IMG/VR virus record: IMGVR_UViG_3300034279_000305
Coordinates: 1 to 64,000 of that record
Length of the DNA: 64,000 nt
Origin: a virus
Reading direction: 5' to 3' (one strand)
A program made the position numbers and the translations under genes. This document shows, one piece after another, positions 1 to 38,786 of the stretch. Under the pieces are notes generated by a model. The model did not search any database, was not told the DNA's origin, and saw only the letters and a list, made by a program, of their open reading frames with translations. Positions within the stretch are counted from its first letter, which is position 1, and each line of letters begins with the position of its first letter.

Positions 1-1962
1 CTCTCCTTGCCAGCACTTCTTTAAGTCGCTGGCAAACTTTTTAGCAACTTCCCATTTACCTTCGCGATACAGTTGCAAGAACTTATCATGTTGGAGATGC
101 CCTGCTGCATCAAAGAACGGAAATGCCGTATATATTCTGGCAGGTTCTGTCTTACCTTTAACTGCGATCAGGTCAAGTTCTACTACTTGGTATACATCCC
201 CAACCAATTCGGCAGTTTGCGGTCCGAGGACGAGTTTGACGCCATAAGGTTTGGACTGACCTTCGAGGCGAGCAGCCAAATTAACCCCATCGCCCAAGCA
301 AGTATAATCAAAACGCTGGTCGCTGCCCATATTACCAACAACCACAGTGGCAGTGTTAATGCCAAGACCCATACCGAAAGCGGGAATGCCTTCGCTTTTA
401 ACTTCTTCATTGAAAGTCTCCAAATCTTTGAGCATTTGAAAGGCAGTTTGAACCGCATCTAAAGCATGTTTGTTATTATCTAACGGTGCATTCCAGAATG
501 CCATCTGAGCATCACCAATATACTTATCTAGTGTACCCTTGTTCTCAAGGATTGCTCTTGTCATCACTGTCATATAGCGGTTCATAATCTTAGTAAGACC
601 TTGAACATCTTCGCCATAGTGTTCGGAGATTGTAGTAAAACCGCGAACGTCTGTGAACATGATCGACAGTTCTCGAGAGTCACCACCAAGTGTCAGAAGT
701 TCTGGTTGTCTTTGTAACTGAGCAACGAGATCTGGTGACAGATAGGTTCCGAACTGTTTCTTAATTTGCTGCTTCTGTAGATATTCAGAAATATACTTTG
801 CAGTAAAGATGTGAATATAGATAAGAGCAATAGCAAATATGTTAAATGTTACATCGAACAGAATACCTTTGCTTGCGAACAGATACACAGGCAGATAGAA
901 ATATCCACCGAGAATCGCAGCAATATAAATTATAGAGAATTTAAAACGAGAAAGAATGATCAATGCCAGAGCAAGACAAAGAAAAGCAGCAAGATCCGCA
1001 AGTTGACTCCAAACAGGAATCGACACAGAGTCTCCATTTATCAGAGTTTCAAGAATACTCGCCTGAAGGACGTGGGGATGTTGCGCACCTGATGGAGTCG
1101 CTACAGGGTTCGCAATTCCAGCAGCAGTTACGCCAAGAATTACAATTTTCCCATCAAGACGAGGAATATCAGAACCTAATTCAACAGATGGAAATACGTA
1201 ATTGGGATTGATGAACGTTCTTCCATATTCGTCTGTCTTAATGGTTTCAAAAGAAGGAATTCGTAATGCCTCAACTCCCGTCTGATTTATCTTCGCTTGA
1301 TATGACGGATCTCCAGCAGCAACACGCAGCATCTCTAGAGCAAATGCGGGATAGTATTCGCCAGATGATTGCGCTAGAAGAGGAACTCGCCTTACGACCC
1401 CATCTGTTTCGGGTAAAGTCGATGTTATCCCAACACCGACAGCGGCTTCTTGAAGAACTGAGATATTACTTAGAACGCATGGATATTGAGGAAGAAATTC
1501 AGTTGGTTCTCCATCGCCGACTACGGCAACGCCTGTTCTCCGAATTGTCGCACTTGCCCGTGAACAAGAGTCACTTACCGTCTGACTAAGAACAACTGGA
1601 TACTGATTTAAGGTATCCGCAAGAACTCGATCAGTCCCCATCCGATCAGACTCAGGCATAAGTATAGTGCTACCAACAAGAGTAGCCCCTCTGCCATAAA
1701 TATCGCCAATAATTTTAGCGTGGACTTCGCGAGGGAAAGGCCACTGTCCATATTTTTCAATTGCTTTCTCCCCAATATTAACAGTTACAATTTGTTCGGA
1801 TTGTGTCGGCGAACCGAGCATCAAATAATCATAAAACTTCAATCTTGTGGATTCAACCAAGTATGGGTTTGCTAGTTTTACTGTTAACAATACCGCAAAA
1901 GTAATCAGTGCCAACCAAGGCGAGAGTAGAACTTTTTTAGTTTTTTGTATAAGAGTATCCAT
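1..1962 (-). CDS. CHASE2-domain membrane class III adenylate cyclase (partial, C-terminus beyond window)
   Basis: The frame is open from an ATG at 1962 to the window edge (654 codons visible). It has an N-terminal membrane helix (about 15-31), a CHASE2-like extracytoplasmic sensor region (about 35-310), two or three helices (about 320-385) and a class III nucleotide cyclase domain (about 430-615). Both metal-binding Asp are present (D438 in FTDVRGF, D484 in KYIGD), as are the transition-state Asn and Arg (N561, R565). K480 and T554 suit ATP, so adenylate cyclase is the better guess. CHASE2 cyclases are bacterial inner-membrane sensors that make cAMP. The start overlaps the preceding curlin-like gene by 26 bases. 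In bacteria CHASE2 cyclases often sit beside FecR-domain genes, as here. No frameshift was seen. Confidence 0.9.
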   Translation of the reverse strand, partial: MDTLIQKTKKVLLSPWLALITFAVLLTVKLANPYLVESTRLKFYDYLMLGSPTQSEQIVTVNIGEKAIEKYGQWPFPREVHAKIIGDIYGRGATLVGSTILMPESDRMGTDRVLADTLNQYPVVLSQTVSDSCSRASATIRRTGVAVVGDGEPTEFLPQYPCVLSNISVLQEAAVGVGITSTLPETDGVVRRVPLLAQSSGEYYPAFALEMLRVAAGDPSYQAKINQTGVEALRIPSFETIKTDEYGRTFINPNYVFPSVELGSDIPRLDGKIVILGVTAAGIANPVATPSGAQHPHVLQASILETLINGDSVSIPVWSQLADLAAFLCLALALIILSRFKFSIIYIAAILGGYFYLPVYLFASKGILFDVTFNIFAIALIYIHIFTAKYISEYLQKQQIKKQFGTYLSPDLVAQLQRQPELLTLGGDSRELSIMFTDVRGFTTISEHYGEDVQGLTKIMNRYMTVMTRAILENKGTLDKYIGDAQMAFWNAPLDNNKHALDAVQTAFQMLKDLETFNEEVKSEGIPAFGMGLGINTATVVVGNMGSDQRFDYTCLGDGVNLAARLEGQSKPYGVKLVLGPQTAELVGDVYQVVELDLIAVKGKTEPARIYTAFPFFDAAGHLQHDKFLQLYREGKWEVAKKFASDLKKCWQGE

Positions 1963-3391
1963 TACATGGTCCAGTCGTGCATGTTATTTCCATTTTCGCA
2001 GAGTCGGCAGTGGTCAAGTTATTTTGCGTGACAGTTACACCAATTCCAGGACTATTTAGTAAAAGTTGAAATTGCTTTGCAGAAGCACCTAATTGAGTAA
2101 CAGATGCAGTAGCGCCACCAAACGGTGCGCTGATATCCAGAAAATGGTTACCAGTCCCTTGTTGCAAGGTACTGATATTATTAGAGTTTCCTAAAGCATT
2201 GATAAACAACGATTTTCCTCCAGCATCTTTTTGTTGCGCTGAGATTTGATTGCCAAGTCCATTGGTAATAATCTCGGCGTATTTACTGCCTTGTTGTTGC
2301 GTCAACGACACTACGTTGTTATTACCTGTAACGGAAACTTCTGCTAAGTTCTTACCAATTGGAGTTGTCGCTGTTCCCTGATTAATAGTTACGCTGTTGC
2401 TGTTGCCGTTAATCGTCATTGCTTGTGCGCCATTCACACCACGAATTTGATTCTGCTTCGAGAACTGTTCAACGTAAACAGAATTACTAGAACCAGTTAC
2501 ATTGATGTAGATAGAGTTTTGTGTAATCGCATTTGTTTGATTAATCTTCAATGATTGGTTCGCGCTGATAGAAGCGAGAGGATATGTTGGAGTAGGAGGA
2601 GCAGGTGGAGGAGGTGGTGGCGCAGAAGAACCAGCATTCGGTTGAACTGGAGTAAATGCTGTTCCATTCAGTGAAGTTGTTCCTTGCATCTGATCAATGA
2701 AAAGAATTGGCGACAATGCAGTATCGCCTAGATTGAATGAGGCAAATCCCAGAAGATAGTTTCCGTCAGCAGGAACTGTGAAGACTGCGACTTGCCAACC
2801 AGTGGCACCGTAAGATCCCACAGAATAATTTCCAGTTCCTTGATTGGTGAATCCCAGAAGCGCGAAGTTTTGAGTTTGCCCGTTGATTGTCGGAGTACCA
2901 TTACCACCAGTAACAGTGATCATCGATCCATCATTGTATGGAACATAATCGGTTGAGACATACTGCCAAGCATAAGTGTATGTTGTACCTGCTTGAAGAA
3001 ACACTGTTCTACTAATAGAAGTCGCATTGGTAGGATACATGCTACCATTAGAGTAAATAGTATTTCTAATTGATGTAATTGTAGAACCTGACAACCCCAA
3101 AGTAGTCATGGCGCCATCAAATCCAGGAGAACCATTTCCTGCCTGTAGCGATACCATGTAAGATCCATACGGAGTTACTGTCCAGCACTTACCGCCACCT
3201 GGACAATAGTTAGTCATACCAGTTGTTACTTGAACACCAGAACCACTATCACTCCACGAAGTTCTTGTGGCAGTTGAACCGTTACTAACAGTCCAACCAG
3301 TATAGTTACCATTTTCGAAACCGTAGTTCGTTACCTGTGCGAACGCTGGTATCGTAAAGAATAGTAAAAATAGAGCAATTAGTTTTTTCAT
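1937..3391 (-). CDS. Secreted curlin-repeat protein with N-terminal beta domain
   Basis: This 484-residue protein starts with a clear signal peptide ending AFAQ. Residues 20-240 look like a beta-rich, Gly/Ser/Thr-rich extracellular domain of unrecognised family. A proline linker (run of P near residue 260) leads to a C-terminal region of curlin-like Asn/Gln repeats (patterns such as GNSNSV, GNNNVV and GNSNNI spaced about 22-25 residues), as in CsgA/CsgB amyloid subunits. It is probably exported through the CsgG pore encoded nearby and carries an extra adhesive or binding head. Its ATG overlaps the FecR gene stop (ATGA). Two Cys near the C-terminus are unusual for curlins. Function is inferred from repeats and context. 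Confidence 0.8.
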   Translation of the reverse strand: MKKLIALFLLFFTIPAFAQVTNYGFENGNYTGWTVSNGSTATRTSWSDSGSGVQVTTGMTNYCPGGGKCWTVTPYGSYMVSLQAGNGSPGFDGAMTTLGLSGSTITSIRNTIYSNGSMYPTNATSISRTVFLQAGTTYTYAWQYVSTDYVPYNDGSMITVTGGNGTPTINGQTQNFALLGFTNQGTGNYSVGSYGATGWQVAVFTVPADGNYLLGFASFNLGDTALSPILFIDQMQGTTSLNGTAFTPVQPNAGSSAPPPPPPAPPTPTYPLASISANQSLKINQTNAITQNSIYINVTGSSNSVYVEQFSKQNQIRGVNGAQAMTINGNSNSVTINQGTATTPIGKNLAEVSVTGNNNVVSLTQQQGSKYAEIITNGLGNQISAQQKDAGGKSLFINALGNSNNISTLQQGTGNHFLDISAPFGGATASVTQLGASAKQFQLLLNSPGIGVTVTQNNLTTADSAKMEITCTTGPCNGYSYTKN

Positions 3392-4533
3392 CTTGCACCT
3401 GTTTCTTGCATCACAGTTATATTACCTTGTGGTCTACCAGTTCCCGATGTTGTCCACTTATCGTCTACAAAGTTGTAAACATCTATCAAACCATTTTGAA
3501 CAGATACAACTTGCGCTTCGTTACCTTTCTCCAACCAGATAGTAACTGCCTGTTGTCTGTCTTCTGACAGTCGAGTATATACCCAACCGACCTGAACGTT
3601 CTTCTTGAATGTTGGTGATACATTAGTATAGACGGTTTCTGCTGGAATACTACCTTCATTATATTCAGCAAAAACTTCTAGTAGTTCTTGTGGTGTTGCT
3701 GCTCGACGCATCGACACAGCAACTTGTTCTGTATTATCATTCGTACCTGCATCGGGATCCTTATTGTCATCCGATGCTGCTTTTGCTGGGTTAGTGAATT
3801 TCTTTAAACTATCTCTGGCAAGTTGTAGTAAACTCTGACCATCATCTGTTTCCAACGGAACAATTTGAACATTGTTGTCTAATGTCTTAATCAAAGGATT
3901 GATGACTACTGGTGGAGCAGGAGGAGCAAAGTTATTTTCTACGACTGTTGCTTGGAATGGTTGGTTCAACGTAACTACACCAGATGCAGTAATAACTTCA
4001 ATCATACCCGTCGGACATTGAGCAGTTTGTTTTGTGATGTCTAATTCGTTATAACATTCGGGAACCAGCACGACCGTAGAACGACCTGCTTCATCAACCG
4101 ACATAACGAAGTCTGTGCCACGAACTGCGATAGTAGCAGTCGGTGTGCGAATGTTTACGCCTCGTGGGTTTGTTTTCGCGACTTTACCTGATGCGTATCT
4201 GACGGTGCCAAGTGCGACCCGAAGTCCAAGTTTGCCCTTCGTCTTCCCTCCCCCATCATACACAAAGTCGTCCACAAGAAGTCGCGAGTTTTCTGTAATA
4301 TTAACCGTAGTCGAGTCATTAAATGTAATCCTAAATCTGCCTTGACTGTTTGTTGAAACAGTGTCCATCTTTTGAACTCGTGCACCCTTAGATGCAACTG
4401 TAGTCTTGGCGCCACGCTTAATAGCACCGCCTCCTCTGAAATCTGTTATCGACCCAATATCCGCAAAGGCAGGAGTCGATAACAGAAATATCAGTAGAAG
4501 ATTAGTGACCAGTTTTGATATTAAACGTGCCAT
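3388..4533 (-). CDS. FecR-domain periplasmic protein
   Basis: It has a signal peptide (ending PAFA) followed by a FecR-type domain (about residues 25-150). The domain holds the family's typical order: a short beta entry, a stretch like GRFRITFNDSTTVNI, then RTPTATIAVRGTDF. The rest (about 200-380) is unassigned, with an Ala/Pro segment. I chose ATG 4533; an in-frame GTG lies 12 bases upstream. It overlaps the upstream curlin-like gene by 32 bases. FecR-domain proteins occur beside CHASE2 cyclases and surface-fibre systems in bacteria; the domain can act in ligand or signal relay. Its role here, perhaps signalling to the cyclase or binding the fibre, is inference. Confidence 0.85.
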   Translation of the reverse strand: MARLISKLVTNLLLIFLLSTPAFADIGSITDFRGGGAIKRGAKTTVASKGARVQKMDTVSTNSQGRFRITFNDSTTVNITENSRLLVDDFVYDGGGKTKGKLGLRVALGTVRYASGKVAKTNPRGVNIRTPTATIAVRGTDFVMSVDEAGRSTVVLVPECYNELDITKQTAQCPTGMIEVITASGVVTLNQPFQATVVENNFAPPAPPVVINPLIKTLDNNVQIVPLETDDGQSLLQLARDSLKKFTNPAKAASDDNKDPDAGTNDNTEQVAVSMRRAATPQELLEVFAEYNEGSIPAETVYTNVSPTFKKNVQVGWVYTRLSEDRQQAVTIWLEKGNEAQVVSVQNGLIDVYNFVDDKWTTSGTGRPQGNITVMQETGAR

Positions 4534-5275
4534 TTGATCCCACACTATTAATATTGATCACAGTTTCAGATGCACCATACTGTTGTGTTGTTACAGTGTT
4601 TAGCGAACCTGTCAGATTTACATATAGTGAGTGACCGAATGTTCCACCGAGATCGGTTTGTGTAACATCAAAGTCATTATAGTTGCCTGTCACCAGAATA
4701 GTTTGTGACGCATTTGGTGATAGTGCATCCATGTTGATTGTGTTATTGTTACCGTTGAAATCCATAGAGTTACGGATATTAGCACCCGAACCACGGAAAA
4801 CAAACGAGTTGTTATTACCAGTGAACTTGGCATTCATGTCGAGTTGATTACATGAGGAGTCAGTAACTTCAGTTCCGCAACGAATAGTAGCAGTGTTCAA
4901 ATCGCCAATTTGACGAATTGTTACATCGGCGATTCCTTGGGCTCCTGTATCGGATACGACACCCATATAAAGTTGGTTTCCATTGCCTGTCTGTATTGCG
5001 ATAACGCTCTGGTTATCACCACGTAGGTAAATAGGATCAAGAGTAGAACCGATAACGTTAGCAGTACCAGTTTGAACGATGTTAACATCTACGTTACCCC
5101 CTTCTTGATCGATATATACCTTATTTGTTGTTGCAACAGTATTCGCCTCTGTTTCGTTTGGTGAAGTTGTTACGATTGCTGGAGGAGTTGGTGCTGTTGG
5201 CAGCACGGTTTGTGCAATCACAGATGTTCCATAACAAAGAGCAGCGCCAACTAATAAAAACTTACTTAGTTTCAT
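4502..5275 (-). CDS. Curlin-repeat fibre subunit (CsgA/CsgB-like)
   Basis: This is a 257-residue secreted protein. The start at 5275 follows an AAGGAAA ribosome site, and the signal peptide ends VIAQ. A short Pro/Thr linker is followed by repeated Asn-rich beta units (GNGNQL, GNNNSF, GNNNTI, GNYNDF, GSLNTV) at roughly 22-30 residue spacing, the pattern of amyloid curlins. No second domain is visible, so it is the likelier main fibre subunit or nucleator. It overlaps the csgG stop by 14 bases, so the genes are probably translated together. The spacing is less regular than in E. coli CsgA and a disulfide-capable CGTEV...C pair is present. Confidence 0.82.
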   Translation of the reverse strand: MKLSKFLLVGAALCYGTSVIAQTVLPTAPTPPAIVTTSPNETEANTVATTNKVYIDQEGGNVDVNIVQTGTANVIGSTLDPIYLRGDNQSVIAIQTGNGNQLYMGVVSDTGAQGIADVTIRQIGDLNTATIRCGTEVTDSSCNQLDMNAKFTGNNNSFVFRGSGANIRNSMDFNGNNNTINMDALSPNASQTILVTGNYNDFDVTQTDLGGTFGHSLYVNLTGSLNTVTTQQYGASETVININSVGSNGTFNIKTGH

Positions 5276-6086
5276 TTGTTGTTTCCTTTTGTTTGAATCT
5301 CCATAGATTCTTAGTTTCACCATCCTTGATCAACTCAACAACGGCCGTTTCTATGGCTGAACGGATCGCATAACTACCTGCTTCATTACTTGTTTGTTGT
5401 CCATCAAATTCAAACGCTTTAGTCGCCATATCGAAGAATGTGAAAGCAGTTACCCCCTCGGAAGTAGAGAGAACAGTTTTCTCTACAGTAACCGAATTGA
5501 GGACTTCACCAGTTTGGACAGAAACTAGGCGAAGACTAACTGTAACTTGGTCTTGTGTGTATTGCTGGTATGGACCGACGCCAAGGAATCTAGCACCAGT
5601 ACCACCAGTTTTAATATTCGAGTTATAATCAATGATACCACCTTCTATGATGATACCTGCAACCTTTAGCGGTGGAAGAGGTTCAGCACCTTCTCCAGAA
5701 ATCTGTTCGCGCATCTGGCGAACAAGTTGACGTTCTTTAATCAGCGAATCGATACCAACACGCTCAACAGGAATAAACCACTTACCATTACCTGTGTCTT
5801 GTAGAGTCTTAATCAGATATGCGTCTGCACCCTGAGTTACCGCAGTCGAGAAACTTGCAAGAGTTGAAGATGGTTTACGTTGACCAGTTCTATCGGTGAA
5901 CGAATATAATGCGATAGGAATTGGTTGTCCGTCTAACTCAGGAAGATCCTTGAACAACTTTGGATTAGCAAAACGTTTGACTTCTGCGTCATCTCTGAAC
6001 AGATATGATTGGTTGGCAGTAGGATGAAGTGCGCCAACACAACCAGAAAGGACGAGCAAAAGCGGAAGGAGAATTAACTTTTTCAT
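5262..6086 (-). CDS. csgG: CsgG-like curli secretion pore lipoprotein
   Basis: This 274-residue protein is close to E. coli CsgG in length (277). It has a type II signal peptide with lipobox LSGC (lipidated Cys16) and CsgG-family segments such as IALYSFTDRTGQRKPS, the GIIIEGGIIDYNSN strand and the C-terminal AIRSAIETAVVELI helix. CsgG forms a nonameric outer-membrane channel that exports curlin subunits. It sits 9 bases after csgF. CsgG-like genes are known in some marine T4-type phages, but here cognate fibre-subunit candidates follow directly. Confidence 0.93.
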   Translation of the reverse strand: MKKLILLPLLLVLSGCVGALHPTANQSYLFRDDAEVKRFANPKLFKDLPELDGQPIPIALYSFTDRTGQRKPSSTLASFSTAVTQGADAYLIKTLQDTGNGKWFIPVERVGIDSLIKERQLVRQMREQISGEGAEPLPPLKVAGIIIEGGIIDYNSNIKTGGTGARFLGVGPYQQYTQDQVTVSLRLVSVQTGEVLNSVTVEKTVLSTSEGVTAFTFFDMATKAFEFDGQQTSNEAGSYAIRSAIETAVVELIKDGETKNLWRFKQKETTNETK

Positions 6087-6095
6087 AACGTCTCC

Positions 6096-6545
6096 TTAGA
6101 ATGCGAATGTAGCAATAGGAACGACAACAACCGTAGTGTTACCATTCTTATCAACAACTGTCAGTCTAACTTCGGTTCCAGTCTTGACGTAACTTACGGA
6201 GTTACCGTCGAGGTTGAATGTCCCTGCACTGGCATTTCCACCTTCTGCGAACAGATTGTTCGAAAGTTGCGTAGCAAGTTGGGCATATACCTGAGAGGTA
6301 AACAGCGCCATGAATTTAGCGAGTGGCGTATTAGATGCCTCTGCTCTTGCTAGTGCTGCCTTTGCTGCCTCAGCATCTTTAATTGCCTGTTCACGCGAAC
6401 GCTCTTGCGAGTCGATTGATTGCACGTGTGAAGACCACCCATAACCAGTAAAGGAAGGTGATTTAAATTGTTGGACAATAGGATCTGCGTATACTGGACT
6501 ACTTAGACTTAGTAGTGCCAGGAGCATCGTCGCTCGTTTTAGCAT
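6096..6545 (-). CDS. csgF: CsgF-like curli assembly factor
   Basis: This 149-residue protein has a signal peptide (ending VYA). The mature N-terminus contains QQFKSPSFTGYG, matching the conserved CsgF segment that plugs the CsgG pore (E. coli QFRNPNFGG). The C-terminal half has the expected short beta strands (VRLTVVDKNGNTTVVVV). CsgF couples the secretion pore to fibre nucleation at the cell surface. It is the first gene of the curli-type module; no good sigma70 or TATAAATA promoter is evident in the 68 bases upstream. An Ala-rich helical insert (about 55-85) is longer than in E. coli. Confidence 0.88.
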   Translation of the reverse strand: MLKRATMLLALLSLSSPVYADPIVQQFKSPSFTGYGWSSHVQSIDSQERSREQAIKDAEAAKAALARAEASNTPLAKFMALFTSQVYAQLATQLSNNLFAEGGNASAGTFNLDGNSVSYVKTGTEVRLTVVDKNGNTTVVVVPIATFAF

Positions 6546-6613
6546 CTTTCTCTTCCTTTTTGTTTTTGTTGTCAGAAGAAAAATTTAAATCAAAGGAAAA
6601 TACTTTAAGGATC

Positions 6614-6880
6614 TCAATCTTTAGATTTAGTGTCATTACTGTGATCCTCTTTTATTTGCAAAACTACACTCACCTTCTGGTTTAATCTAATCAAATCGTT
6701 GTCGAGCATACGAACACGATCAATCAACGCAATCAAAATTACGTTTGTCTCACCAATCAACGGCATCAATTTATCAGTTACGAACTTATAAATGAACCAA
6801 ACAAAATATCCCATACCGACAGATGCGACGATTGGGAATCCATATTGTTTAACTAGTTCTGCTACAATTGATGGATCCAT
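6614..6880 (-). CDS. Small one-helix membrane protein, paralogue of next gene
   Basis: This is an 88-residue protein with one N-terminal transmembrane helix (about 13-33, after YGFPIVAS) and a cytosolic helical tail with a charged end. It resembles the adjacent 95-residue product in layout (xxFPI, glycine-rich helix, then ID/LDNRVR...D.IR), which suggests a tandem duplication. The layout recalls small holin-associated (BhlA/UviB-like) phage proteins, but no family can be proved. Its start overlaps the upstream stop (TAATG). Confidence 0.75.
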   Translation of the reverse strand: MDPSIVAELVKQYGFPIVASVGMGYFVWFIYKFVTDKLMPLIGETNVILIALIDRVRMLDNDLIRLNQKVSVVLQIKEDHSNDTKSKD

Positions 6881-7167
6881 TAATCTTTCCGAGCATCGTT
6901 CTTCCCGTCTGCTCGTGCGATTCTGTCTAGATCTGGTTTAAGACCCAAGGCGGAACTAACAACTGCATCAACGCGAATAATATCATGGTTCATTGTCTTG
7001 ACTCGGTTGTCGAGTCCCATAATAATACCCTGCATTCCCTTGAGTGCTTTAACAACGCTCTCGAGAATGTAGTTGATAACAAAATATACGAAGACACCCG
7101 CAAGTAAAGCACCTGCGATTGGGAATCCCACATCTCCGATCAATTTAAATATAGCATCGTATGTCAT
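6880..7167 (-). CDS. Small one-helix membrane protein (holin-accessory-like)
   Basis: This is a 95-residue protein with one strong membrane helix (about 13-38) following VGFPIAG, then a coiled helical tail (MGLDNRVKTMNHDIIR). It is a paralogue of the downstream gene. There is a TATAAATA late-promoter box 6 bases upstream of the ATG and no good ribosome site, so the transcript would have almost no leader. The role is unknown; late timing and membrane form are compatible with lysis or envelope function. Confidence 0.75.
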   Translation of the reverse strand: MTYDAIFKLIGDVGFPIAGALLAGVFVYFVINYILESVVKALKGMQGIIMGLDNRVKTMNHDIIRVDAVVSSALGLKPDLDRIARADGKNDARKD

Positions 7168-7185: not shown

Positions 7186-8301
7186 TTATCTTATAATGTC
7201 AATTTTTCCAATTGAGTCAGCATTCCAAACCTCTAAGTCGCGTCGTAAACGACCTTCTGCAACCAGATTATCATATCTAGACGTTGCCTTACGCTTCCAC
7301 CACGAAATAATATTATCCATATAATGTTTATCAAAGTTTTGTCCAGGAATTAACTTATCCTGCTTACCGAGAATAACTTCTTTGGAATTTTCATACCCGT
7401 ATGTTGAAATATAGAAACGTTTCTTAGTAGTAATGTCTTTATTTAGTTTGAGAGCATCGCAGAATACAGAATAGTATTCGGAGTCATGTTCTTTCAGGGA
7501 TTTACTGATGATGCTATTCATCTTATTCTGCATCTTCATCTTATATGATGCTACACCGTCGCGACCAAACAATGGCGCTCCGCCGTTTTTCTCGTAGAAC
7601 CATTCCATGGTCTCATCCCAGAAATCGTCTGAGAAAGAGAGAACAAAATTACTAAGAGTGTCGCCTGTATAACGAATGAACGGTTTTAGTCCATCATACT
7701 GAGATGCTTGCTTGATGCTGCCATATAATGAAGTGGTTTCAAATAGACAAGTGTCCATGTTATACTTCTTGTTAAACATCTCGCGAAACTCGTGCGAGGT
7801 GCAAAGAAGTGCAAGAAGTTTACCACCCAGATAATTAAATCCGAACGGTTGAGCAGGAACAATGATGAAACCCATCACCGCATGCTTGTTGAACGATTTT
7901 AGATCGGGAACTTGCCCGAACCATTCATTGCGTGGACGTGAATTGATAAAGGGACTGGCGACGCGACAGAATCCTACGTGCTTACCCGTATTCTTTTCTC
8001 TTACGATAAACTTGATTTCCTTCCCGAACGAATTTTCATTACAAAAGGAAGAAGTGATTTCTACCATTGTCGAGAATTCGCTCGGGGAAGGTTCATAGAT
8101 CTCAAGATCCATGTCTTCAGGGTGCATATTAAAGTCGGAGAACAAATTGTTCTCGGGTTCAAACCCTGGAAGAGAGTGTGGAAGGGTTTTTAACCGCTCC
8201 AGTTTTTTCATGCGCATGTGGTCGTCAATACGACCATAATTTGACATGTAGTCAACGAATCGTTTTGCGATGTATTCTGCGTCGTGTTTTTCTAATATCA
8301 T
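7186..8301 (-). CDS. DUF4338/DruA-like protein, function unknown
   Basis: This is a 371-residue soluble protein. The middle part (about 105-235) has the layout of the DUF4338 (DruA) family: a strand ending in GFCRVASP, then RPRNEWFG, a core VMGFIIVPAQPFGFNYLGGKLLAL, and ETTSLYGS. That family is known from the Druantia defence system, but the biochemistry is unclear and this match is from memory of motifs only. It lies at the downstream end of the probable DNA-modification locus and has its own promoter at 8308-8336, whose predicted start site coincides with the ATG. Confidence 0.55.
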   Translation of the reverse strand: MILEKHDAEYIAKRFVDYMSNYGRIDDHMRMKKLERLKTLPHSLPGFEPENNLFSDFNMHPEDMDLEIYEPSPSEFSTMVEITSSFCNENSFGKEIKFIVREKNTGKHVGFCRVASPFINSRPRNEWFGQVPDLKSFNKHAVMGFIIVPAQPFGFNYLGGKLLALLCTSHEFREMFNKKYNMDTCLFETTSLYGSIKQASQYDGLKPFIRYTGDTLSNFVLSFSDDFWDETMEWFYEKNGGAPLFGRDGVASYKMKMQNKMNSIISKSLKEHDSEYYSVFCDALKLNKDITTKKRFYISTYGYENSKEVILGKQDKLIPGQNFDKHYMDNIISWWKRKATSRYDNLVAEGRLRRDLEVWNADSIGKIDIIR

Positions 8302-8844
8302 TTAACCAGTATAAAGCATTTTTTTGATAAAGTCAATGATTTTTTGCTGATCATCAAAAGATTCATTAAGAAACTCGGTCATTTCCATCTGAAGAACGAA
8401 GTTGGAACGAATGTTATTGATTTTACTTTCGCGACCCTTCAACCAAGTCTCGTCTTGGTTACTACCACGTTCTGCGTAGCGAACATTTCGAGTTTCCTTC
8501 GTGGTTTGTAGATAAACGATACTGGTGTCATACTTATCGACACATTCCTCTAGGAATGAACCTGTGCAAAGACGATCGCCCTCGAAAAGAACAATATCTG
8601 TAGCAGCGCGAGATGCAAGAAACTTCACTGCCTCTGGTTGAACTGCCATCGACATCTTGTCAGTGCCACCGAAGACTTCACCTTCTTCATACTTACCCAG
8701 AACGTAAATGTTGTCCTTGTTATGATAGGGAACCAACTTTACATCAGTCTTCACTTCACGGGAAATGCCAACCTCGTCTAGCAAACGCTTCATAAGGGTA
8801 GACTTACCGCTTCCAGGTTCACCGAAAATTGCAATTACTTTCAT
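8302..8844 (-). CDS. P-loop nucleotide/DNA-base kinase-like protein
   Basis: This 180-residue protein is a single-domain P-loop NTPase: Walker A GEPGSGKST at residues 8-16, a Walker B-like strand ending VLFEGDRL near 97-104, and a C-terminal Arg-rich lid region (ETRNVRYAERGSNQ). The fold suits a small-molecule or DNA-base kinase. In thymine-hypermodifying phages a P-loop kinase phosphorylates 5-hydroxymethyluracil in DNA next to amino-acid-transfer enzymes, and this gene overlaps such a candidate (ATGA). That specific function is inference from context. Confidence 0.75.
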   Translation of the reverse strand: MKVIAIFGEPGSGKSTLMKRLLDEVGISREVKTDVKLVPYHNKDNIYVLGKYEEGEVFGGTDKMSMAVQPEAVKFLASRAATDIVLFEGDRLCTGSFLEECVDKYDTSIVYLQTTKETRNVRYAERGSNQDETWLKGRESKINNIRSNFVLQMEMTEFLNESFDDQQKIIDFIKKMLYTG

Positions 8845-9842
8845 CCAAATAAATCCTCTAATCCAACTGATTTCTGTTCAACATCGAACATCCAATTCAT
8901 TCTATCTAGTGTTCCAGATCGAACGTATTCACCACACTTGTCCTTATTAACACCATATCGCGAAAGCAGTCGAGAGTCAAGTGTTTCTTCGCGAGATTGC
9001 CATAAAACATTCCACTCAATACCATACCAACCGTCTGCTGCTACCTTATTGATCTCGTCTGCTTGACGATCTAGATAAAAACCTAGATATCGCGACGACC
9101 TTTCTCGGAAGATTTTCTTGAACGAGCAAAGACAGGTTTCCATAGTAAATGCGTCGAACTGTGGTGCAAGAGTTGGATACCGATGACGCAATTCATCCAG
9201 AATCGACTGAGACTCAGCTTCCAACCACTGGTATTCTTTCGGGGTGAGTTTACCATTAATCCATTCTTCCTTATTAAGAGCATAACAGAGACCATTGCGG
9301 TGCGACTTGCTACCTGAATAGTCATTCAGCATTAGACTGGTAGGTTCAATCTTAATTCCTGCAGTATGCTTTAGATGCTGCATATAGAACCAAGTCGTAT
9401 AACGACCGAACTTGTGATAATTGGTATTGATAACCTTCCAAAGATTATCGAAGTTTTGCTGTTCATTATCGCCGTAGTGAGATTCTAGAACTTCACGCTG
9501 CGATTTCTTGCCCATAAACTTCTGATACGACTCGAACATAGAAGGCAAATGCCCTTTATTGTATTTCGTATCTGTTTGATAACGAAGTCTTTTATAGTTT
9601 TCGTTATTCCACCATGTAATACGGTCTACAGTCGCAAGTTCGTAGTCTGGGAACTCATTCTTGAGCACCCAAGATGTTGGAAGGTAATAGGTGTTACCGT
9701 ATAACCAGCACAACCAAATACGTTCTTCGTCATTGTGTTCATATCGCTTATTGAGGTAGTTGGTCTGCCAGACCGAAGGATCGCAATCCTTGTGACTAAC
9801 AGACCAAGCATACCAGCGAATGAACAATTCGCGATTATTCAT
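8841..9842 (-). CDS. Putative amino-acid:DNA transferase-like (ADDT) protein
   Basis: This is a 333-residue helical protein rich in Trp and Tyr. The core FGRYTTWFYMQHL, followed by a SGSKSHRNGL segment, resembles the HhH-glycosylase-related ADDT / thymine-pyrophosphorylase proteins predicted to attach amino groups to phosphorylated hydroxymethyl bases in DNA. The assignment is by motif memory and context (kinase downstream, ParB-fusion upstream, TET-like oxygenase nearby). The C-terminus ends GLEDLFG, a possible sliding-clamp tail shared with three other proteins here. Both gene junctions are ATGA overlaps, which implies coupled translation. Confidence 0.55.
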   Translation of the reverse strand: MNNRELFIRWYAWSVSHKDCDPSVWQTNYLNKRYEHNDEERIWLCWLYGNTYYLPTSWVLKNEFPDYELATVDRITWWNNENYKRLRYQTDTKYNKGHLPSMFESYQKFMGKKSQREVLESHYGDNEQQNFDNLWKVINTNYHKFGRYTTWFYMQHLKHTAGIKIEPTSLMLNDYSGSKSHRNGLCYALNKEEWINGKLTPKEYQWLEAESQSILDELRHRYPTLAPQFDAFTMETCLCSFKKIFRERSSRYLGFYLDRQADEINKVAADGWYGIEWNVLWQSREETLDSRLLSRYGVNKDKCGEYVRSGTLDRMNWMFDVEQKSVGLEDLFG

Positions 9843-11380
9843 TCAACATAATCTTCTGCAGCAATCCACTCACCAGTTTCCTCGTCATGATACGAGTCGG
9901 TTTTTTTATCGTAATAGTGCGTAATCTTACCATCATCATATATTGGAGTAATGGTATTGCACTCGTCGTATGCTGGAATTTCCATATCAATTTCTGTCAT
10001 CATGTTTTTGGTAAATGAATCTAAAAGAATAATTTTAAGATTACATCTAGGATTCATTCTTTTAACTGATGCAGTTAGTTTTTTAAAATATGTATCCCAA
10101 TTCTCATAATCTGTTAATCCAGCGTGATGCGTAATGATTACACCATCCCAGATATCCGCCTGTCCCATCTTATTTAGAACACCACCAACACCAGCATTAT
10201 AAATCGCACCAGAGGTTACTGTAATACTGGCATGATTAGGATACTTCAAGTCAATTTCTTTTTGAATGTGAGTTAGATCAGTTTTAGAGTATATCTGGTA
10301 ATTCATCTCAGCAATTGCCTGATCAGTTTTAATTCGCTCAATCGCCTTCTTCAAATTAGATGAAATGACTGCCCGTGTCCAAACAGGATCGAATTGATGC
10401 GTTACGCTTAACTTAAACTTATCGCTCTGCAGTAAAGTAAATTTATCGTCGTCAAGATCCTTGAGTTTCTTCGCATAACTCTGGATGATTGCACGCTGGC
10501 AGTCAGCAGGTGTATTCCCCTTCTTCTTAAATGGTTTATGATTTGCTAGGTTTCCGTAATAATCGATTGTGCAATCATCGTCATCAAAATCACTGCTATT
10601 GATATAGATGACGGGTGCGCTAATCCAACCTGCATCAAGCGCCGCACGAGAAGTATGGTTCCCATCAATAATTAATTTTGTTCCGTCTGGATATACGACA
10701 ACAACAATCGGTTGAACATGTTTTCTCGCCTCAGCAGGATCAGACCGCATCTGGGTTGCAATTTCATCAACATGTGCAGGATCATACAATTCTGCACGAA
10801 CCTGATTGTGTCCAAATTCTGCAATTACGGTAATGGGTTCTTCAATTGTCGTATAATAACCGTTCTTAACCAACTTGAGAATTTTCTTAGCAAGTTTTGT
10901 ATTAGCAAGAGCAAAAACATCAACAGGTTTCGGTGCAGGTTCAATACCATTGATCCAATCGATACCAACCTTAGAATGTTCGACAGTAATTATGGACATA
11001 TCTAAAATACCTCCATCACCACCACCACCATTACTGGAGTTATACCACATATCATTACGACGAGCATCAGCAGATTTTAGTAGATACCGCTCAAGGATAA
11101 TAGCAATTCTGGCAGAACCAAAATAAAGAATTGTTCTACGAAGATGACCTAATGACCATGCTCGTTGAAGTTCTGGATTTTTAGAAGAGAAAATATATCC
11201 ATCATCAACATCTGCGCTCTTACGAAATCCGATATAACGCTTGCCAGTTACAAAGTCATACCAACCATAAACATATCCTTTGGTCTTAGCAGAAATTGTA
11301 GATAATAGTTCTTCTATCTCATAATCACAATCGTCAAAACTAGAAACTTCCTTGATTTGCGGGGTGCGTGTCATTGCCAT
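9839..11380 (-). CDS. GIY-YIG / ParB-like fusion protein
   Basis: This is a 513-residue multidomain protein. Residues about 33-115 form a GIY-YIG-like domain (GYVYGWYDF...KRYIGF). Residues about 183-262 form a ParB/Srx-like domain (HNQVRAELYD, then LIIDGNHTSRAALDAG). The C-terminal 200 residues are unassigned and end in an acidic tail. ParB-like domains are recurrent partners in phage DNA-base modification loci, where they may bind or process nucleotide or protein substrates. The gene heads a three-gene unit behind the promoter at 11413-11441. Whether the GIY-YIG part cuts DNA is not shown. Confidence 0.7.
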   Translation of the reverse strand: MAMTRTPQIKEVSSFDDCDYEIEELLSTISAKTKGYVYGWYDFVTGKRYIGFRKSADVDDGYIFSSKNPELQRAWSLGHLRRTILYFGSARIAIILERYLLKSADARRNDMWYNSSNGGGGDGGILDMSIITVEHSKVGIDWINGIEPAPKPVDVFALANTKLAKKILKLVKNGYYTTIEEPITVIAEFGHNQVRAELYDPAHVDEIATQMRSDPAEARKHVQPIVVVVYPDGTKLIIDGNHTSRAALDAGWISAPVIYINSSDFDDDDCTIDYYGNLANHKPFKKKGNTPADCQRAIIQSYAKKLKDLDDDKFTLLQSDKFKLSVTHQFDPVWTRAVISSNLKKAIERIKTDQAIAEMNYQIYSKTDLTHIQKEIDLKYPNHASITVTSGAIYNAGVGGVLNKMGQADIWDGVIITHHAGLTDYENWDTYFKKLTASVKRMNPRCNLKIILLDSFTKNMMTEIDMEIPAYDECNTITPIYDDGKITHYYDKKTDSYHDEETGEWIAAEDYVE

Positions 11381-11412
11381 AATATAAAAAATCCTTCATA
11401 ATTTAGACAACC

Positions 11413-11441
11413 ATTATACTAAACTTTAGGGGAAAAGTAAA
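11413..11441 (-). promoter_or_regulatory. sigma70-like promoter for the 11380 gene unit
   Basis: -35 TTTACT (11436-11441), 17-base spacer, -10 TATAAT (11413-11418). It overlaps the end of the GNAT gene and precedes a leader with a GAAGGA ribosome site. Confidence 0.75.
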
Positions 11442-11971
11442 GGGTTTTCTTCAAGTTTCGCAAATACTTTTACGCATCCGCCTTTACCCTTTCTAAACAC
11501 TGCTTTGTTAATGACAGTATCGTTGATGTCATACAGACCATCTTGGTAGGTTGGACCGTTGAGTTTGAACATGGACAGTTGACTGCCTGATTTCTGCTCA
11601 CCGAGGAAAGTAAATCCACATTTCTCGTAGAATTGGACTGCATCTGCTTCTGCAGAAACTCGGAAGTATGCAGCGTTGTATCGATGCGCCTCAGCAATAG
11701 CAAAGTCACACAACGTCCTGCCAACACCCTTACCACGCGAGGCATAGAATGTGTGAAGTAACTGCAGGTTGGCAATGATGGGAGTTCGCTTAGAGAATGA
11801 TACGATGATAGCGCCGAGAAGATTATCATCTTCCCAGACGCCCATACAGTTATCCCAGAGTTCTTGCATGTCTGCCTTTGCGACAAAAGTCTTTGCAAAG
11901 GAATCTTGCTTCTGAGTTGTAATGTGTTTACTAAATTCTTCGCGACTGGTTCGACGCAACCTAGACAACAT
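11426..11971 (-). CDS. GNAT-family N-acetyltransferase
   Basis: This is a 181-residue protein with a GNAT core: a strand with AIIVSF, an acetyl-CoA pyrophosphate loop (SRGKGVGRTLC, about residues 80-90), and the terminal motif FYEKCGFTFLGE. I place the start at 11971, overlapping the amidoligase stop by 11 bases; an upstream in-frame start would run far into that gene. GNAT, amidoligase and class II amidotransferase genes are known to cluster in systems that build or modify peptide- or amino-acid-like groups. Here acylation of a DNA-base adduct is possible but unproven. Confidence 0.8.
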   Translation of the reverse strand: MLSRLRRTSREEFSKHITTQKQDSFAKTFVAKADMQELWDNCMGVWEDDNLLGAIIVSFSKRTPIIANLQLLHTFYASRGKGVGRTLCDFAIAEAHRYNAAYFRVSAEADAVQFYEKCGFTFLGEQKSGSQLSMFKLNGPTYQDGLYDINDTVINKAVFRKGKGGCVKVFAKLEENPLLFP

Positions 11972-12848
11972 CGTGGAATTCTCGCTTCTTCTCACCGCGA
12001 GACTTGTCATACTTGGTATTAATCCAACCAGCGTATTCGTTAAGATCCCAGATGAATGGAGGGAAGTCAAAGTCGTAGTAATCTAGGATTTCCCTTACAC
12101 TCGCCCAACTGCCATTCAATGCAGCATCAATAAACGCAGTCGCGAACTTGAACTGATCTTCAATCTGCTTACGATCGGTAGTTGAACGGAAGCAACGGAA
12201 CTCAATCGTACCAGTATGCTTCATGCAATACATGTTGATCGCATAACGGAAAGGACGACCCATGGAAACGCCATCTTTACCTGCTGCATGCATCTTAATA
12301 AACGAATCGAAGTCAGTTGCAAGGTTAGCAATGTTATCACACATGTAATCAGGCATCTCACGACCACCGTCAAACTTGAGATATGTCGTAGCACCCTTTG
12401 CTGACTTCATACCACCACCATCGCGGAACTGATAACACGCTTCAATAGTGTCTTTCTGGTTTGCCTTGATAAACGCAGTAAGACGCTTCAGTGCATCAAT
12501 GTCATCTTTCAGACCTGGAACAAAAACGTGAAGGTGTCCATGGTTGACGCAGGATGCAGTTGGTTCGTTGCCGAAATCGACAAACAACTCATGAATTTGC
12601 ATGATGCGATCAACCTGCTCCTCCCACGTGCGAGTTGGTTTGGTATTAATCTCGCCACCAAAAGGAGGTTCCACCCCCAATGGGTCACACGCGACAAAAC
12701 GATACGGTTTGTGAATGTTTACAATGTCAGTTTCCGCAAACTCCCATGCACCAAGTTCTTCTGGAATCTCAACACGACGATCTATGTCCCCCCACTCAAT
12801 TTCGTACCCATAAGTGAAGTCTTCAGTATCATATTTCATATTTACCAT
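11961..12848 (-). CDS. Amidoligase (glutamine-synthetase-fold COOH-NH2 ligase)
   Basis: This is a 295-residue protein of the phage/bacterial amidoligase family: N-terminal GYEIEWGD, a mid EINTKPTRTWEEQ, the HGHLHVFVP strand (about residues 103-111), and the IEFRCFRST strand (about 215-223), giving the acidic and basic residues expected around an ATP/metal site. Such enzymes join carboxyl to amino groups. The ATG follows AAGGAC and overlaps the amidotransferase gene by 20 bases. With the neighbouring glutaminase-type enzyme it could use ammonia or an amino acid to form an amide. The substrate is unknown. Confidence 0.8.
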   Translation of the reverse strand: MVNMKYDTEDFTYGYEIEWGDIDRRVEIPEELGAWEFAETDIVNIHKPYRFVACDPLGVEPPFGGEINTKPTRTWEEQVDRIMQIHELFVDFGNEPTASCVNHGHLHVFVPGLKDDIDALKRLTAFIKANQKDTIEACYQFRDGGGMKSAKGATTYLKFDGGREMPDYMCDNIANLATDFDSFIKMHAAGKDGVSMGRPFRYAINMYCMKHTGTIEFRCFRSTTDRKQIEDQFKFATAFIDAALNGSWASVREILDYYDFDFPPFIWDLNEYAGWINTKYDKSRGEKKREFHDVV

Positions 12849-13524
12849 ATTGCAAGTCCTTATTATTAGTATTTACTGCTGTTTCAGTAATTTCACCATC
12901 AGAAACAGTATAAACTATATTCATGTCACAGTCAATAGTTTTTTCTACACCTGCACGATTAAAAATATCATGAGTAGAAGCAACAATTACGCCATTTTCA
13001 GTTCTATACTGTGTAAGTGGGCGTTTACCATTGCGGTAGAAGCGAAAAATCTTGTCAGAATGAACTTCACACGCTGAAATTGACGCATCAGGCCAACGTT
13101 CAAGTGGATTTTCACCATTTTCAACGGTTTTTAGCAAAAGTTCGCTGTCATTTCGGGTTTCAGTCGCGTAAGAACTAATTTTTGACCAATTTTCGGGTAA
13201 TTCTTGTGTAATTACACCGTTATGCACGATTGCAACCTTGTCAGTGAACAATGGTTGGTTAAATTCTAGGTCTGAAGTGCTATAACGACAGTGTGCAACC
13301 ATATAAAGGTTGCCATCTTCATTCAACATGCTATACATGTCAATGCCAGCAAGGAATTCATCCGCTGGAAGTGGTGCTTTGATGGTAAAGATTGTGTTTT
13401 TGCGAACAAACGACACACCTGTTGCGTGTAACCCCCGAATACGAGACTCGGAGATAACACGCTTCAGAAGCATCATGTCTTCAGCGTTGGGATTTTGAAG
13501 AAATGCGCCGACAACACCGCACAT
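12829..13524 (-). CDS. Class II glutamine amidotransferase
   Basis: This is a 231-residue Ntn-hydrolase domain protein. The start gives MCGVVGAF, so Cys2 would be the N-terminal nucleophile after Met removal. RGLHATGVSF, AHCRYSTS, VHNGVIT and RNDSELL match class II glutaminases (PurF/GlmS type), which release ammonia from glutamine. There is no synthase domain, so a partner must use the ammonia; the overlapping amidoligase is the natural candidate. The start overlaps the TET/JBP gene stop (TAATG). Confidence 0.88.
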   Translation of the reverse strand: MCGVVGAFLQNPNAEDMMLLKRVISESRIRGLHATGVSFVRKNTIFTIKAPLPADEFLAGIDMYSMLNEDGNLYMVAHCRYSTSDLEFNQPLFTDKVAIVHNGVITQELPENWSKISSYATETRNDSELLLKTVENGENPLERWPDASISACEVHSDKIFRFYRNGKRPLTQYRTENGVIVASTHDIFNRAGVEKTIDCDMNIVYTVSDGEITETAVNTNNKDLQYGKYEI

Positions 13525-14861
13525 TAGAACAAATCCTCTAGTGAAGACTCCACCTTGAACGCTGCAGGGTGGAACTTTTCTACAATTTCACGACCCATCT
13601 TACCTTCGAGGTATTCATACCACTCAGGTTCGTCCCACATTCCAGGCGAAACGCCATTCCAGAGTGGGCGATAGAACTTGTGGTTGCGATCCATTCGACG
13701 ATCGGTTACAAACTGTTCGCGAGTCTGCTCATATTCCCATGGTCCAAGATCTAGCATTGCTTCGCGGAAATAGCAAACCAACGAAATGCGTTCAGCATCT
13801 GGAGTATCTAGAACAATCTCAGTATTAGCATGCATAATCTCGTGATTGTTAACAAGCAAAAGATCTCCTGGACGAACGTTCACTGCCATACGATATTCTG
13901 GGAATACCAGATAACCACCAGTATAGTTACCCTTACCAACTACCAGAAGATTCGACAATCCGCTATCTAGATCGCCAGCATCTCGGTGACACGCAGTGCG
14001 GAAAGTCTTGTTGACAGTAATGGTGGTAAACACTGTCTCGGGAACGAGGAAGCGAGGGTCCAACTTGTCTGCCGCTGCTCGTTGATTACCCCAACGCCAC
14101 GGTAGGAGTTCCTTAAAACCTCTGTCTAGAGACTGGAGGAACGGGAACGAAAGAGCAAACTTCTCTGGTTCGTCACGAGTATACGAAGTAGCACGACCGA
14201 AGGGAATACGAGGATAACGGTCGAACCAACCAGCAACGCCAGAGAATACTGACTTCGCATAGTTAGTCTGCGAAACCCACTTAGTGGCAATCATCTTCGC
14301 TTCTTCTGCGCACTGCTCCTTGGTCTTATTATGAAGACCGTCGACCCACTTATCGAACCAACCGAAGTATTCGGGATATGTCTTACAGACCTGACTGCGC
14401 AACCAGACCTGTCCTCGAGTCTCGTCCTCGGTAGAACGACCTGCGCCTTCATACTTCTTACGGATAGACTCAATGGAAAGGTCGTCAATCAAACGTCCAT
14501 CGGTATTCATCAGGAAGTCTAGAACCTCGAGTTCGTAACTGGTAACCCAATCACGCCCACCACGACCCTCTACGCCAAGAAGTTCTCCGCGAGGTCCAGC
14601 AGCGAGTCCACGATTCTGGGATTCTTTTGCTGCCTCGCGGAGACCGATGTATGCGGAATCTCGTTCTTCCTGCGTAAACCAGTTCTTACGAAACTTGAAC
14701 GCAATACGCTGTTCGTCGCCAAGACTTGGAGAACCGAATACCGATTCCATGTAGCAGTCTGTGTCTTCATTAATAACAATGTCATAATGACTGTCATCAA
14801 CATATTGACCGAGCAAATGCTCACAGTCAAGTTTAGACTCAGCAACAATAATTTTTACCAT
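13524..14861 (-). CDS. TET/JBP-family 2OG-Fe(II) dioxygenase (5-methylpyrimidine oxidase)
   Basis: This is a 445-residue protein whose C-terminal half (about 275-370) matches the TET/JBP dioxygenase core: ITVNKTFRTACHRDAGD with iron ligands H292 and D294, GGYLVFPEY, then NHEIMHANTE supplying the distal His (probably H344) and R358 (ERISLV) for 2-oxoglutarate. These enzymes oxidise the methyl of thymine or 5-methylcytosine in DNA to hydroxymethyl. The N-terminal 270 residues are specific to phage members or unassigned. It leads a four-gene coupled unit under a promoter at 14911-14939 and ends SSLEDLF, like a clamp-binding tail. The target base is not decided by sequence alone. Confidence 0.88.
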   Translation of the reverse strand: MVKIIVAESKLDCEHLLGQYVDDSHYDIVINEDTDCYMESVFGSPSLGDEQRIAFKFRKNWFTQEERDSAYIGLREAAKESQNRGLAAGPRGELLGVEGRGGRDWVTSYELEVLDFLMNTDGRLIDDLSIESIRKKYEGAGRSTEDETRGQVWLRSQVCKTYPEYFGWFDKWVDGLHNKTKEQCAEEAKMIATKWVSQTNYAKSVFSGVAGWFDRYPRIPFGRATSYTRDEPEKFALSFPFLQSLDRGFKELLPWRWGNQRAAADKLDPRFLVPETVFTTITVNKTFRTACHRDAGDLDSGLSNLLVVGKGNYTGGYLVFPEYRMAVNVRPGDLLLVNNHEIMHANTEIVLDTPDAERISLVCYFREAMLDLGPWEYEQTREQFVTDRRMDRNHKFYRPLWNGVSPGMWDEPEWYEYLEGKMGREIVEKFHPAAFKVESSLEDLF

Positions 14862-14910: not shown

Positions 14911-14939
14911 ACTATACTAGATTTCTCGACAAATGTCAA
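14911..14939 (-). promoter_or_regulatory. sigma70-like promoter for TET-amidotransferase unit
   Basis: -35 TTGACA (14934-14939), 17-base spacer, -10 TATAGT (14911-14916). The leader ends with a GGAG ribosome site before the ATG at 14861. Confidence 0.8.
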
Positions 14940-34429: not shown

Positions 34430-35051
34430 CAATCCACCTCGCATCTTCTAGAATTTTCTTAAACTGTTCTTTATAGTGTTCATTCCAAATCATATACAAC
34501 ATCCATTGTTTTGTATAGTTAATTTTAAACGGTCCATTGTCGGGTAATGTATATGGGTGTATTCTGAAGTTTGGTTTTCCAAAATGCTTCCCGTCCTCGT
34601 AGTAATACTTAGGATAATTCACAGGATCGTTTATTGCCAGATATCTAAGTAATCTCTTGTTAAATTCATTGGCAGTATTGATTGCTCCATACCTTCCTGC
34701 TTCGATGCTACGATCTATTGCTATCGTATGAATGTCACCGTGTGCTCTTGCGAGTTGCATTCCTGGAATAGTATAACTACGCGAACTCAAATGTGTCATG
34801 TGAGAATCTATGTTCGATTCATGATATCCACCTCCACAAAGTATTTTACCATCTCTTCGGTAGAGAATATATCCATTTCCAAGTCCATCATATCTCTTTT
34901 GAACATACAACGCATGTAGAAACGAAGATCGAGTATTCTCCCAATTAACGGGACTCATGTTTGTTGCTCCAGGTCTTGTATCATCTATTGCATGGTTACA
35001 GAATGGCAACAACTGATCAATGGGATATGTGCTGTCTATCTGTTCAAACAT
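34422..35051 (-). CDS. GNAT-like hypothetical protein
   Basis: This is a 209-residue protein. YILYRRDGKILCGGGYHES and the later HTIAIDRSIEAGRYGAINTANEFNKRLLRYL recall strand 4 and the CoA-loop helix of GNAT acyltransferases, but the CoA motif is not clear. The rest is aromatic-rich and unassigned. Its start shares TAATG with the upstream radical SAM gene. Confidence 0.5.
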   Translation of the reverse strand: MFEQIDSTYPIDQLLPFCNHAIDDTRPGATNMSPVNWENTRSSFLHALYVQKRYDGLGNGYILYRRDGKILCGGGYHESNIDSHMTHLSSRSYTIPGMQLARAHGDIHTIAIDRSIEAGRYGAINTANEFNKRLLRYLAINDPVNYPKYYYEDGKHFGKPNFRIHPYTLPDNGPFKINYTKQWMLYMIWNEHYKEQFKKILEDARWIDA

Positions 35052-37774: not shown

Positions 37775-37850
37775 TGGTACGGAGTGACGGGCTCGAACCG
37801 CCGACATTCTGCGTGTAAAGCAGACGCTCTACCAACTGAGCTAACCCCGC
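37775..37850 (-). tRNA. tRNA-Val (TAC)
   Basis: Complete cloverleaf with encoded CCA; loop TTTACAC. The acceptor overlaps the stop of the DUF458 gene by 10 bases. Confidence 0.92.
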
Positions 37851-38278: not shown

Positions 38279-38296
38279 AGGTCACCTATTGAAAAT

Positions 38297-38373
38297 TGGC
38301 GGCGGGTGGTAGGAATTGAACCTACTTCTCAAGGTTTTGGAGACCCGTGGATTACCGTTTTCCCTCACCCCCG
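38297..38373 (-). tRNA. tRNA-Trp (CCA), atypical acceptor
   Basis: The loop CTCCAAA gives anticodon CCA, and the T-arm and 3' CCA are normal. The acceptor strands (CGGGGGTG and CACCCGCC) have two mismatches and one nucleotide extra, and the base after the acceptor is A instead of T8. It may be degenerate. Confidence 0.65.
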
Positions 38374-38387
38374 TAATACTTATAAAA

Positions 38388-38464
<77 letters not shown>

Positions 38465-38525
38465 AAAGTCAAGTCGCACTGTGACGCCTGACCCCGTACT
38501 GCCCAGAAAAACAGTACGTCGTATA

Positions 38526-38607: not shown

Positions 38608-38612
38608 AAAAA

Positions 38613-38687: not shown

Positions 38688-38695
38688 ATTAAACT

Positions 38696-38703: not shown

Positions 38704-38704
38704 T

Positions 38705-38781: not shown

Positions 38782-38786
38782 TAAAC

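Follow-up and report, generated by a model that had tools for sequence, protein, structure and literature searches.

Phosphorylation by a kinase followed by alkylamine transfer on 5-hydroxymethyldeoxyuridine (5-hmdU) in DNA has been described (PMC6449724), and the Pseudomonas phages M6 and PaMx11, in whose DNA a pyrimidine bears an amine at the C5-methylene, belong to the closest known relatives of the locus analysed here. This locus is a seven-gene cluster in a 64,000-nucleotide stretch of viral DNA (IMG/VR record IMGVR_UViG_3300034279_000305, positions 1 to 64,000; hereafter the window), the first part of an 87-kb virus record that is itself a fragment. It encodes a TET/JBP-type dioxygenase (TET), a class II glutamine amidotransferase (GAT-II), a candidate amidoligase, a GNAT acetyltransferase, a probable GIY-YIG/ParB fusion protein, an amino acid:DNA transferase (ADDT) and a P-loop kinase. 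The combined evidence makes it highly probable that these genes form an operon for post-replicative hypermodification of the phage's DNA.

M6 and PaMx11 share with the window a homologous base kinase of the same PHROG family and an ADDT of the same Pfam family and fold. The tailoring enzymes of M6 form a pyridoxal phosphate/radical-SAM set, whereas those of the window are GAT-II, amidoligase and GNAT. Moreover, M6 makes 5-hmdU before replication by the thymidylate-synthase-type gp58 (PMC6449724), whereas no such enzyme was found in the window record, where TET would take its place. The ViI-like Ackermannviridae, with their ADDT/aGPT-Pplase2 proteins, have an ADDT homologue of ~28-29% identity (PF18724) but no TET homologue by tblastn. 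In Melnitz phages, TET adjoins a relative of the GIY-YIG/ParB gene and a same-family kinase; however, these phages carry a C5-methyltransferase, and ADDT, GAT-II and amidoligase are all missing from the 12 kb examined. Caulobacter phage Cr30 has TET, ADDT and kinase proteins 44%, 32% and 34% identical to those of the window, also without a C5-methyltransferase, but it encodes a thymidylate synthase, an inositol-1-phosphate synthase and a glycosyltransferase resembling the TET-associated glycosyltransferase (TAGT) of Pfam, and has no GAT-II or amidoligase in the 21 kb examined. A further parallel is the CmoX/CmoY system of cyanophage S-B43, in which CmoY amidates carboxymethylcytosine in DNA (PMC12783734). 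It likewise forms, in an ATP-dependent reaction, an amide on the side chain of a DNA pyrimidine and has ParB genes nearby; for one cluster of CmoY homologues, use of glutamine-derived ammonia has been predicted (PMC12783734). It differs in that its carboxymethyl handle comes from a C5-methyltransferase homologue using carboxy-S-adenosylmethionine (Cx-SAM), and in that its ligase is AMP-forming rather than similar to glutamine synthetase or γ-glutamylcysteine ligase (GCS).

The seven open reading frames are all intact, without internal stops, and lie on the minus strand in the order given in the original prediction, TET-GAT-II-amidoligase-GNAT-(GIY-YIG/ParB)-ADDT-kinase; they are contiguous and mostly overlap. 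In the first unit TET overlaps GAT-II by 1 nt, GAT-II the amidoligase gene by 20 nt, and the latter the GNAT gene by 11 nt if GNAT starts at position 11971. Between GNAT and the second unit there is a gap of 45 nt with a sigma-70-like site; in that unit GIY-YIG/ParB overlaps ADDT, and ADDT the kinase gene, by 4 nt each. The same gene order recurs in many other viral contigs, whose TET is 100% to ~60% identical to that of the window, which rules out a chance neighbourhood. The proposal of two coupled units under two promoters holds for the two overlapping gene blocks, whereas the promoters are consensus matches only, in a sequence with 32 sigma-70-like sites against 20.8 ± 4.6 after shuffling.

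The TET protein matches the Pfam profile Tet_JBP with an E-value of 5.6e-23 (81.4 bits, curated cut-off 34.9), in agreement with the predicted assignment. Across 38 homologues, the most distant of them 46% identical, the metal ligands H292, D294 and H344 and the 2-oxoglutarate-binding arginine R358 do not vary. The HRD and RISLVxY motifs of the protein align with human TET2. By profile and ligands the protein is a member of the TET/JBP dioxygenases, and is predicted to oxidise a 5-methylpyrimidine in DNA.

The ADDT matches PF18724 at 1.1e-20 (74.9 bits, cut-off 26.2), bearing out its designation as ADDT-like. Its AlphaFold2 model (pLDDT 88) has an all-helical fold, and the only good-probability matches in the PDB are 8z2m and 8z2n (probability 1.00, TM-scores 0.58 and 0.66, Foldseek E-value 0.08), the solved 5-phosphomethyl-2'-deoxyuridine (5-PmdU) glycinyltransferase of phage PaMx11, which shares this fold. 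M6 gp51 in turn matches 8z2m at 1.2e-90 and PF18724 at 1.4e-46. The kinase, also named correctly at the outset, has the Walker A motif GEPGSGKST and matches Ploopntkinase3 at 1.8e-14, which rather than HMUDK_HMUD1 is its best Pfam model, and phrog_800 at 5.2e-18. The latter family also holds M6 gp54, which Pfam names a 5-hmdU DNA kinase. Since the window pair shares the ADDT fold and family and the kinase PHROG with M6 and PaMx11, there is experimental ground for a chemistry in which the kinase of this pair acts first and its ADDT then transfers an amino acid to a phosphomethyl pyrimidine. The label of phrog_800, "terminase small subunit", is a misnomer, as the M6 5-hmdU kinase bears it too; this family of DNA base kinases has passed the wrong name on to M6 gp54 and Cr30.

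The genes between TET and ADDT vary in the clarity of their assignment. GAT-II and GNAT stand as predicted. GAT-II matches GATase_6 at 2.4e-9 (37.7 bits, cut-off 27) and purF at 2e-10, with C2, R80, N102, G103 and D126 invariant in 15 homologues; as a glutaminase domain standing alone, it would need an ammonia acceptor. GNAT matches Acetyltransf_10 at 1.8e-12, and its start is placed from homologue lengths and the overlap. For the amidoligase, the sequence profile falls below the Pfam cut-off (Amidoligase_2, 0.005 in the window and 3.7e-4 in the best of its relatives), whereas the AlphaFold2 model (pTM 0.84) backs the claim: it matches the bifunctional glutathione synthetase GshF, YbdK, GCS and glutamine synthetases, with probabilities up to 1.00 at TM-scores of just ~0.4. 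This glutamine-synthetase/GCS fold rules out that the amidoligase call is a false positive. The proposed GIY-YIG/ParB fusion is probable: its putative ParB region matches Noc by profile (3.2e-4; Pfam ParB 0.011-0.027, below cut-off), whereas its putative GIY-YIG region, for which there is no Pfam match, has the conserved motifs Y38, YIG, E97 and N114-GGG and aligns weakly by hhalign with a SegD-like GIY-YIG protein (P 0.0057).

Table. Genes and promoter-like sites of the predicted hypermodification locus (positions in the window)
Feature	Position	Strand	Length (aa)	Basis
TET/JBP-type Fe(II)/2-oxoglutarate dioxygenase	13524..14861	-	445	Tet_JBP profile, active-site motifs
Stand-alone class II glutamine amidotransferase domain (glutaminase), nucleophile Cys2	12829..13524	-	231	GATase_6, purF
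Amidoligase (glutamine-synthetase/GCS-like carboxylate-amine ligase)	11961..12848	-	295	Amidoligase_2 weak; AlphaFold2 fold
GNAT acetyltransferase	11426..11971	-	~181	Acetyltransf_10; reading frame open from 12070, likely ATG 11971
Probable GIY-YIG + ParB/sulfiredoxin-like fusion	9839..11380	-	513	Motifs; weak profiles
ADDT amino acid:DNA transferase	8841..9842	-	333	PF18724 and AlphaFold2 model
P-loop nucleotide/base kinase	8302..8844	-	180	Ploopntkinase3, phrog_800, Walker A
Promoter-like site upstream of TET	14911..14939	-		TTGACA-17-TATAGT, 11/12 consensus, best in region; consensus match only
Promoter-like site upstream of GIY-YIG/ParB	11413..11441	-		TTTACT-17-TATAAT, 10/12; consensus match only

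Comparison of 80 loci with this TET, gathered in one IMG/VR scan and collapsed to 28 dereplicated TET groups, revealed that the gene content behind TET is exchangeable. In other phages the slot right after TET holds a TAGT, a GT-1 glycosyltransferase, or GalE with a UDP-galactopyranose mutase. GAT-II accompanies ADDT in all eight groups that have it, and none of GAT-II, amidoligase and GNAT occurs in this slot without ADDT. A decoration gene of another class adjoins TET in 0 of the 13 ADDT-bearing groups versus 12 of the 15 ADDT-less ones (Fisher 1.5e-5), where the groups are not fully independent and one of the 12, c48, is counted with the glycosyltransferases though Pfam gives it no identity. 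Cr30 and one further locus (L073) also have a glycosyltransferase elsewhere in the locus. Exchange occurs among close kin as well: the four loci L011, L013, L062 and L014 carry other cassettes yet belong to the closest relatives of the window, with a TET 74-80% identical where whole and the same DruA-like and curli flank. In a quick TET tree with some long branches, at least seven switches are needed between amino-acid and other cassettes, and at least 12 among three states. Because one oxidase carries exchangeable decorators, these patterns are best explained by a TET that makes a hydroxymethyl handle and a cassette that decorates it; the glycosyltransferase cassettes of the relatives are a strong added argument for it.

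At L014 (6472-9449) and in phage C48C1 (L003, 13341-15382), a GalE-like epimerase and/or a UDP-galactopyranose mutase with an unknown gene directly follow TET, which suggests DNA with galactofuranose. A myo-inositol-1-phosphate synthase lies within the TET-ADDT-kinase loci of Cr30 (L001) and of L031, L037 and L072-L074, which suggests an inositol-bearing base.

We propose the following pathway. TET would oxidise a pyrimidine 5-methyl group in phage DNA to 5-hydroxymethyl; the likelier substrate is thymine, which would give 5-hydroxymethyluracil in situ. The P-loop kinase would then phosphorylate the hydroxymethyl hydroxyl in DNA, and ADDT would swap the phosphate for the amine of an amino acid, like the PaMx11/M6 glycinyltransferase. 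Family membership, fold and conserved gene linkage support these three steps, and the predicted sequence of hydroxylation, phosphorylation and addition of an amino-acid-like group fits homology at its core, with a 5-PmdU glycinyltransferase in the ADDT family and a homologue of the M6 5-hmdU kinase. For the later steps, we infer that GAT-II would release ammonia from glutamine, that the amidoligase would use ATP to turn a side-chain carboxylate into an amide with ammonia or another amine, and that GNAT would acylate an amine, yielding a bulky side chain without free charge. Read most simply, these three enzymes would either add amide and acyl groups to the amino acid once it is attached, or build the donor beforehand. 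A role in binding or cutting DNA according to its modification state is probable for the GIY-YIG/ParB protein, and the modification would shield the phage genome from host nucleases. TET-carrying phage DLP6 has restriction-resistant DNA (PMC8228603). Its TET is 48% identical to that of the window, and it has neither a C5-methyltransferase nor a hydroxymethylase.

Several observations weigh against this pathway or parts of it. An hhalign comparison of the window ADDT with M6 gp51 gave no significant match; in the weak alignment that it produced, the invariant E235 and C239 stand opposite the M6 ETVLC motif. DLP6 has no ADDT or kinase within 12 kb downstream of TET, and therefore its resistant DNA supports TET-based modification generally rather than the window cassette. 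In LUZ24-like Pseudomonas phages, which have no TET and no known DNA modification, relatives of GAT-II adjoin an amidoligase and an ATP-grasp gene. GAT-II and the amidoligase are thus not themselves TET-specific, and the pair could make a metabolite. On the side of the base, D297 of the window TET matches, as mapped by motif spacing, the position of the Asp/Asn that contacts N4 of 5-methylcytosine (5mC) in NgTET1, CMD1 and TET2 (PMC7854593). Finally, Melnitz phages pair a C5-methyltransferase with a TET and with relatives of the GIY-YIG/ParB protein and the kinase, so that a cytosine version of the TET system exists there; in cultured Melnitz-3 (L090, 4010-8090) the four genes, starting with an HhaI-like methylase, lie in a row.

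The LUZ24-like pairs bear on an alternative in which GAT-II, amidoligase and GNAT act off DNA: their product, a small amide or acylated amine resembling an amino acid, would be moved whole by ADDT to the phosphorylated base. Besides the occurrence of such pairs in phages without TET, this alternative is consistent with the position of the three genes ahead of ADDT and kinase, with their absence from simpler TET-ADDT-kinase phages, and with a variant (L017/L018/L070) that has GAT-II and a GNAT-like gene without the amidoligase. Against it stands CmoY, an experimental precedent for amide ligation on DNA, and we regard synthesis off DNA as less likely than not.

A second alternative keeps the pathway but starts it from 5mC, supplied by an undetected phage methyltransferase or by the host, which TET would convert to 5-hydroxymethylcytosine and the kinase, ADDT and other enzymes to an aminoacyl-cytosine. 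D297 and the Melnitz gene row would accord with it, as would the phage TETs of proven activity: Burke and colleagues (cited in PMC11404850) reportedly found in 2021 that active phage TETs act on 5mC, in systems of TET and a C5-methyltransferase. However, a search for C5-methyltransferases (PF00145) found none in 32 of 33 TET-bearing records, among them the complete Cr30, DLP6 and C48C1 and the fragmentary window record, though the same search detects the Melnitz enzyme as a positive control. A thymidylate-synthase-type hydroxymethylase (PF00303) was likewise absent from 32 of the 33, including the window record, Cr30 alone being positive. Since both enzymes are missing from all but one record each, thymine, oxidised in DNA, is favoured, if not strongly, over 5mC as the start. 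In addition, the ADDT relative whose structure is solved has phosphomethyl-deoxyuridine as its substrate, and the +8 residue of the active site is Arg in the window TET versus Asp in the Melnitz one. The active-site residues as such are not decisive, as D297 is common to 5mC TETs and the +8 residue varies (His in TET2 and NgTET1, Arg in CMD1). Taken together, a 5mC origin appears rather unlikely. A third reading, in which phage operon architecture keeps passengers or metabolic genes with no part in DNA modification between TET and ADDT, would suit the weak sequence matches of the amidoligase and GIY-YIG/ParB and the swapping or absence of GIY-YIG/ParB in some cassettes, but it is improbable given that GAT-II near TET is always accompanied by ADDT and that order and overlap are kept down to ~60% TET identity.

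For the proposed pathway on DNA, these comparisons lead us to a tentative synthesis, which we hold with less than even confidence: TETs of the window family may be thymine-specific DNA oxidases that replace a nucleotide-level hydroxymethylase and feed exchangeable cassettes, the window product being a new amidated and/or acylated aminoacyl-methyluracil formed by a glutamine-fed amidoligase on DNA. Iyer and co-workers are said to have proposed ADDT, Ploopntkinase3, TAGT and phage TET as base-hypermodification parts in 2013. Thus the component families were already predicted by others, and the amidoligase/GAT-II/GNAT arm and the cassette swapping appear to be new. In the collection searched, no cultured phage has both TET and an amidoligase of the window type, so the remark that this exact set is not known as described was not refuted. 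To our knowledge, thymine oxidation by a viral TET has been predicted but not demonstrated. Phages that have a TET of this type but neither a methyltransferase nor a hydroxymethylase open it to a direct test by mass spectrometry of nucleosides, and some relatives are in culture, namely Cr30 (TET, ADDT and kinase), DLP6 and C48C1 (both TET). The chemistry of the locus would be a way of disguising viral DNA, and exchange of amino-acid and sugar cassettes behind one oxidase may be how phages could diversify their DNA armour fast against restriction and CRISPR. The loci also point to new DNA-modifying enzymes, including the amidoligase, GNAT, and galactofuranose- and inositol-linked versions.

The flank beyond the kinase is also conserved. 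A DruA-like protein (7186-8301, minus strand; PF14236, 1.2e-11) follows the kinase without a gap and is kept whichever cassette follows TET; in several cyanophages, proteins ~50% identical to it are encoded close to clamp-loader genes. One depositor had annotated it as "methylcarbamoylase mom", but hhalign against Mu Mom gave nothing, and we reject it as a Mom homologue. Next to it lies a curli-like cluster (1937-7167, minus strand), kept in close relatives, with matches to FecR (2.6e-13) and CsgG (1.5e-52). It also encodes a curlin-repeat-like protein, as well as two small ones whose N-terminal stretch is hydrophobic. Elsewhere on the minus strand, the window carries 22 tRNA genes for many amino acids (37775-41656) and a radical SAM protein with a B12-binding-like domain (32810-34444), possibly another modification enzyme.

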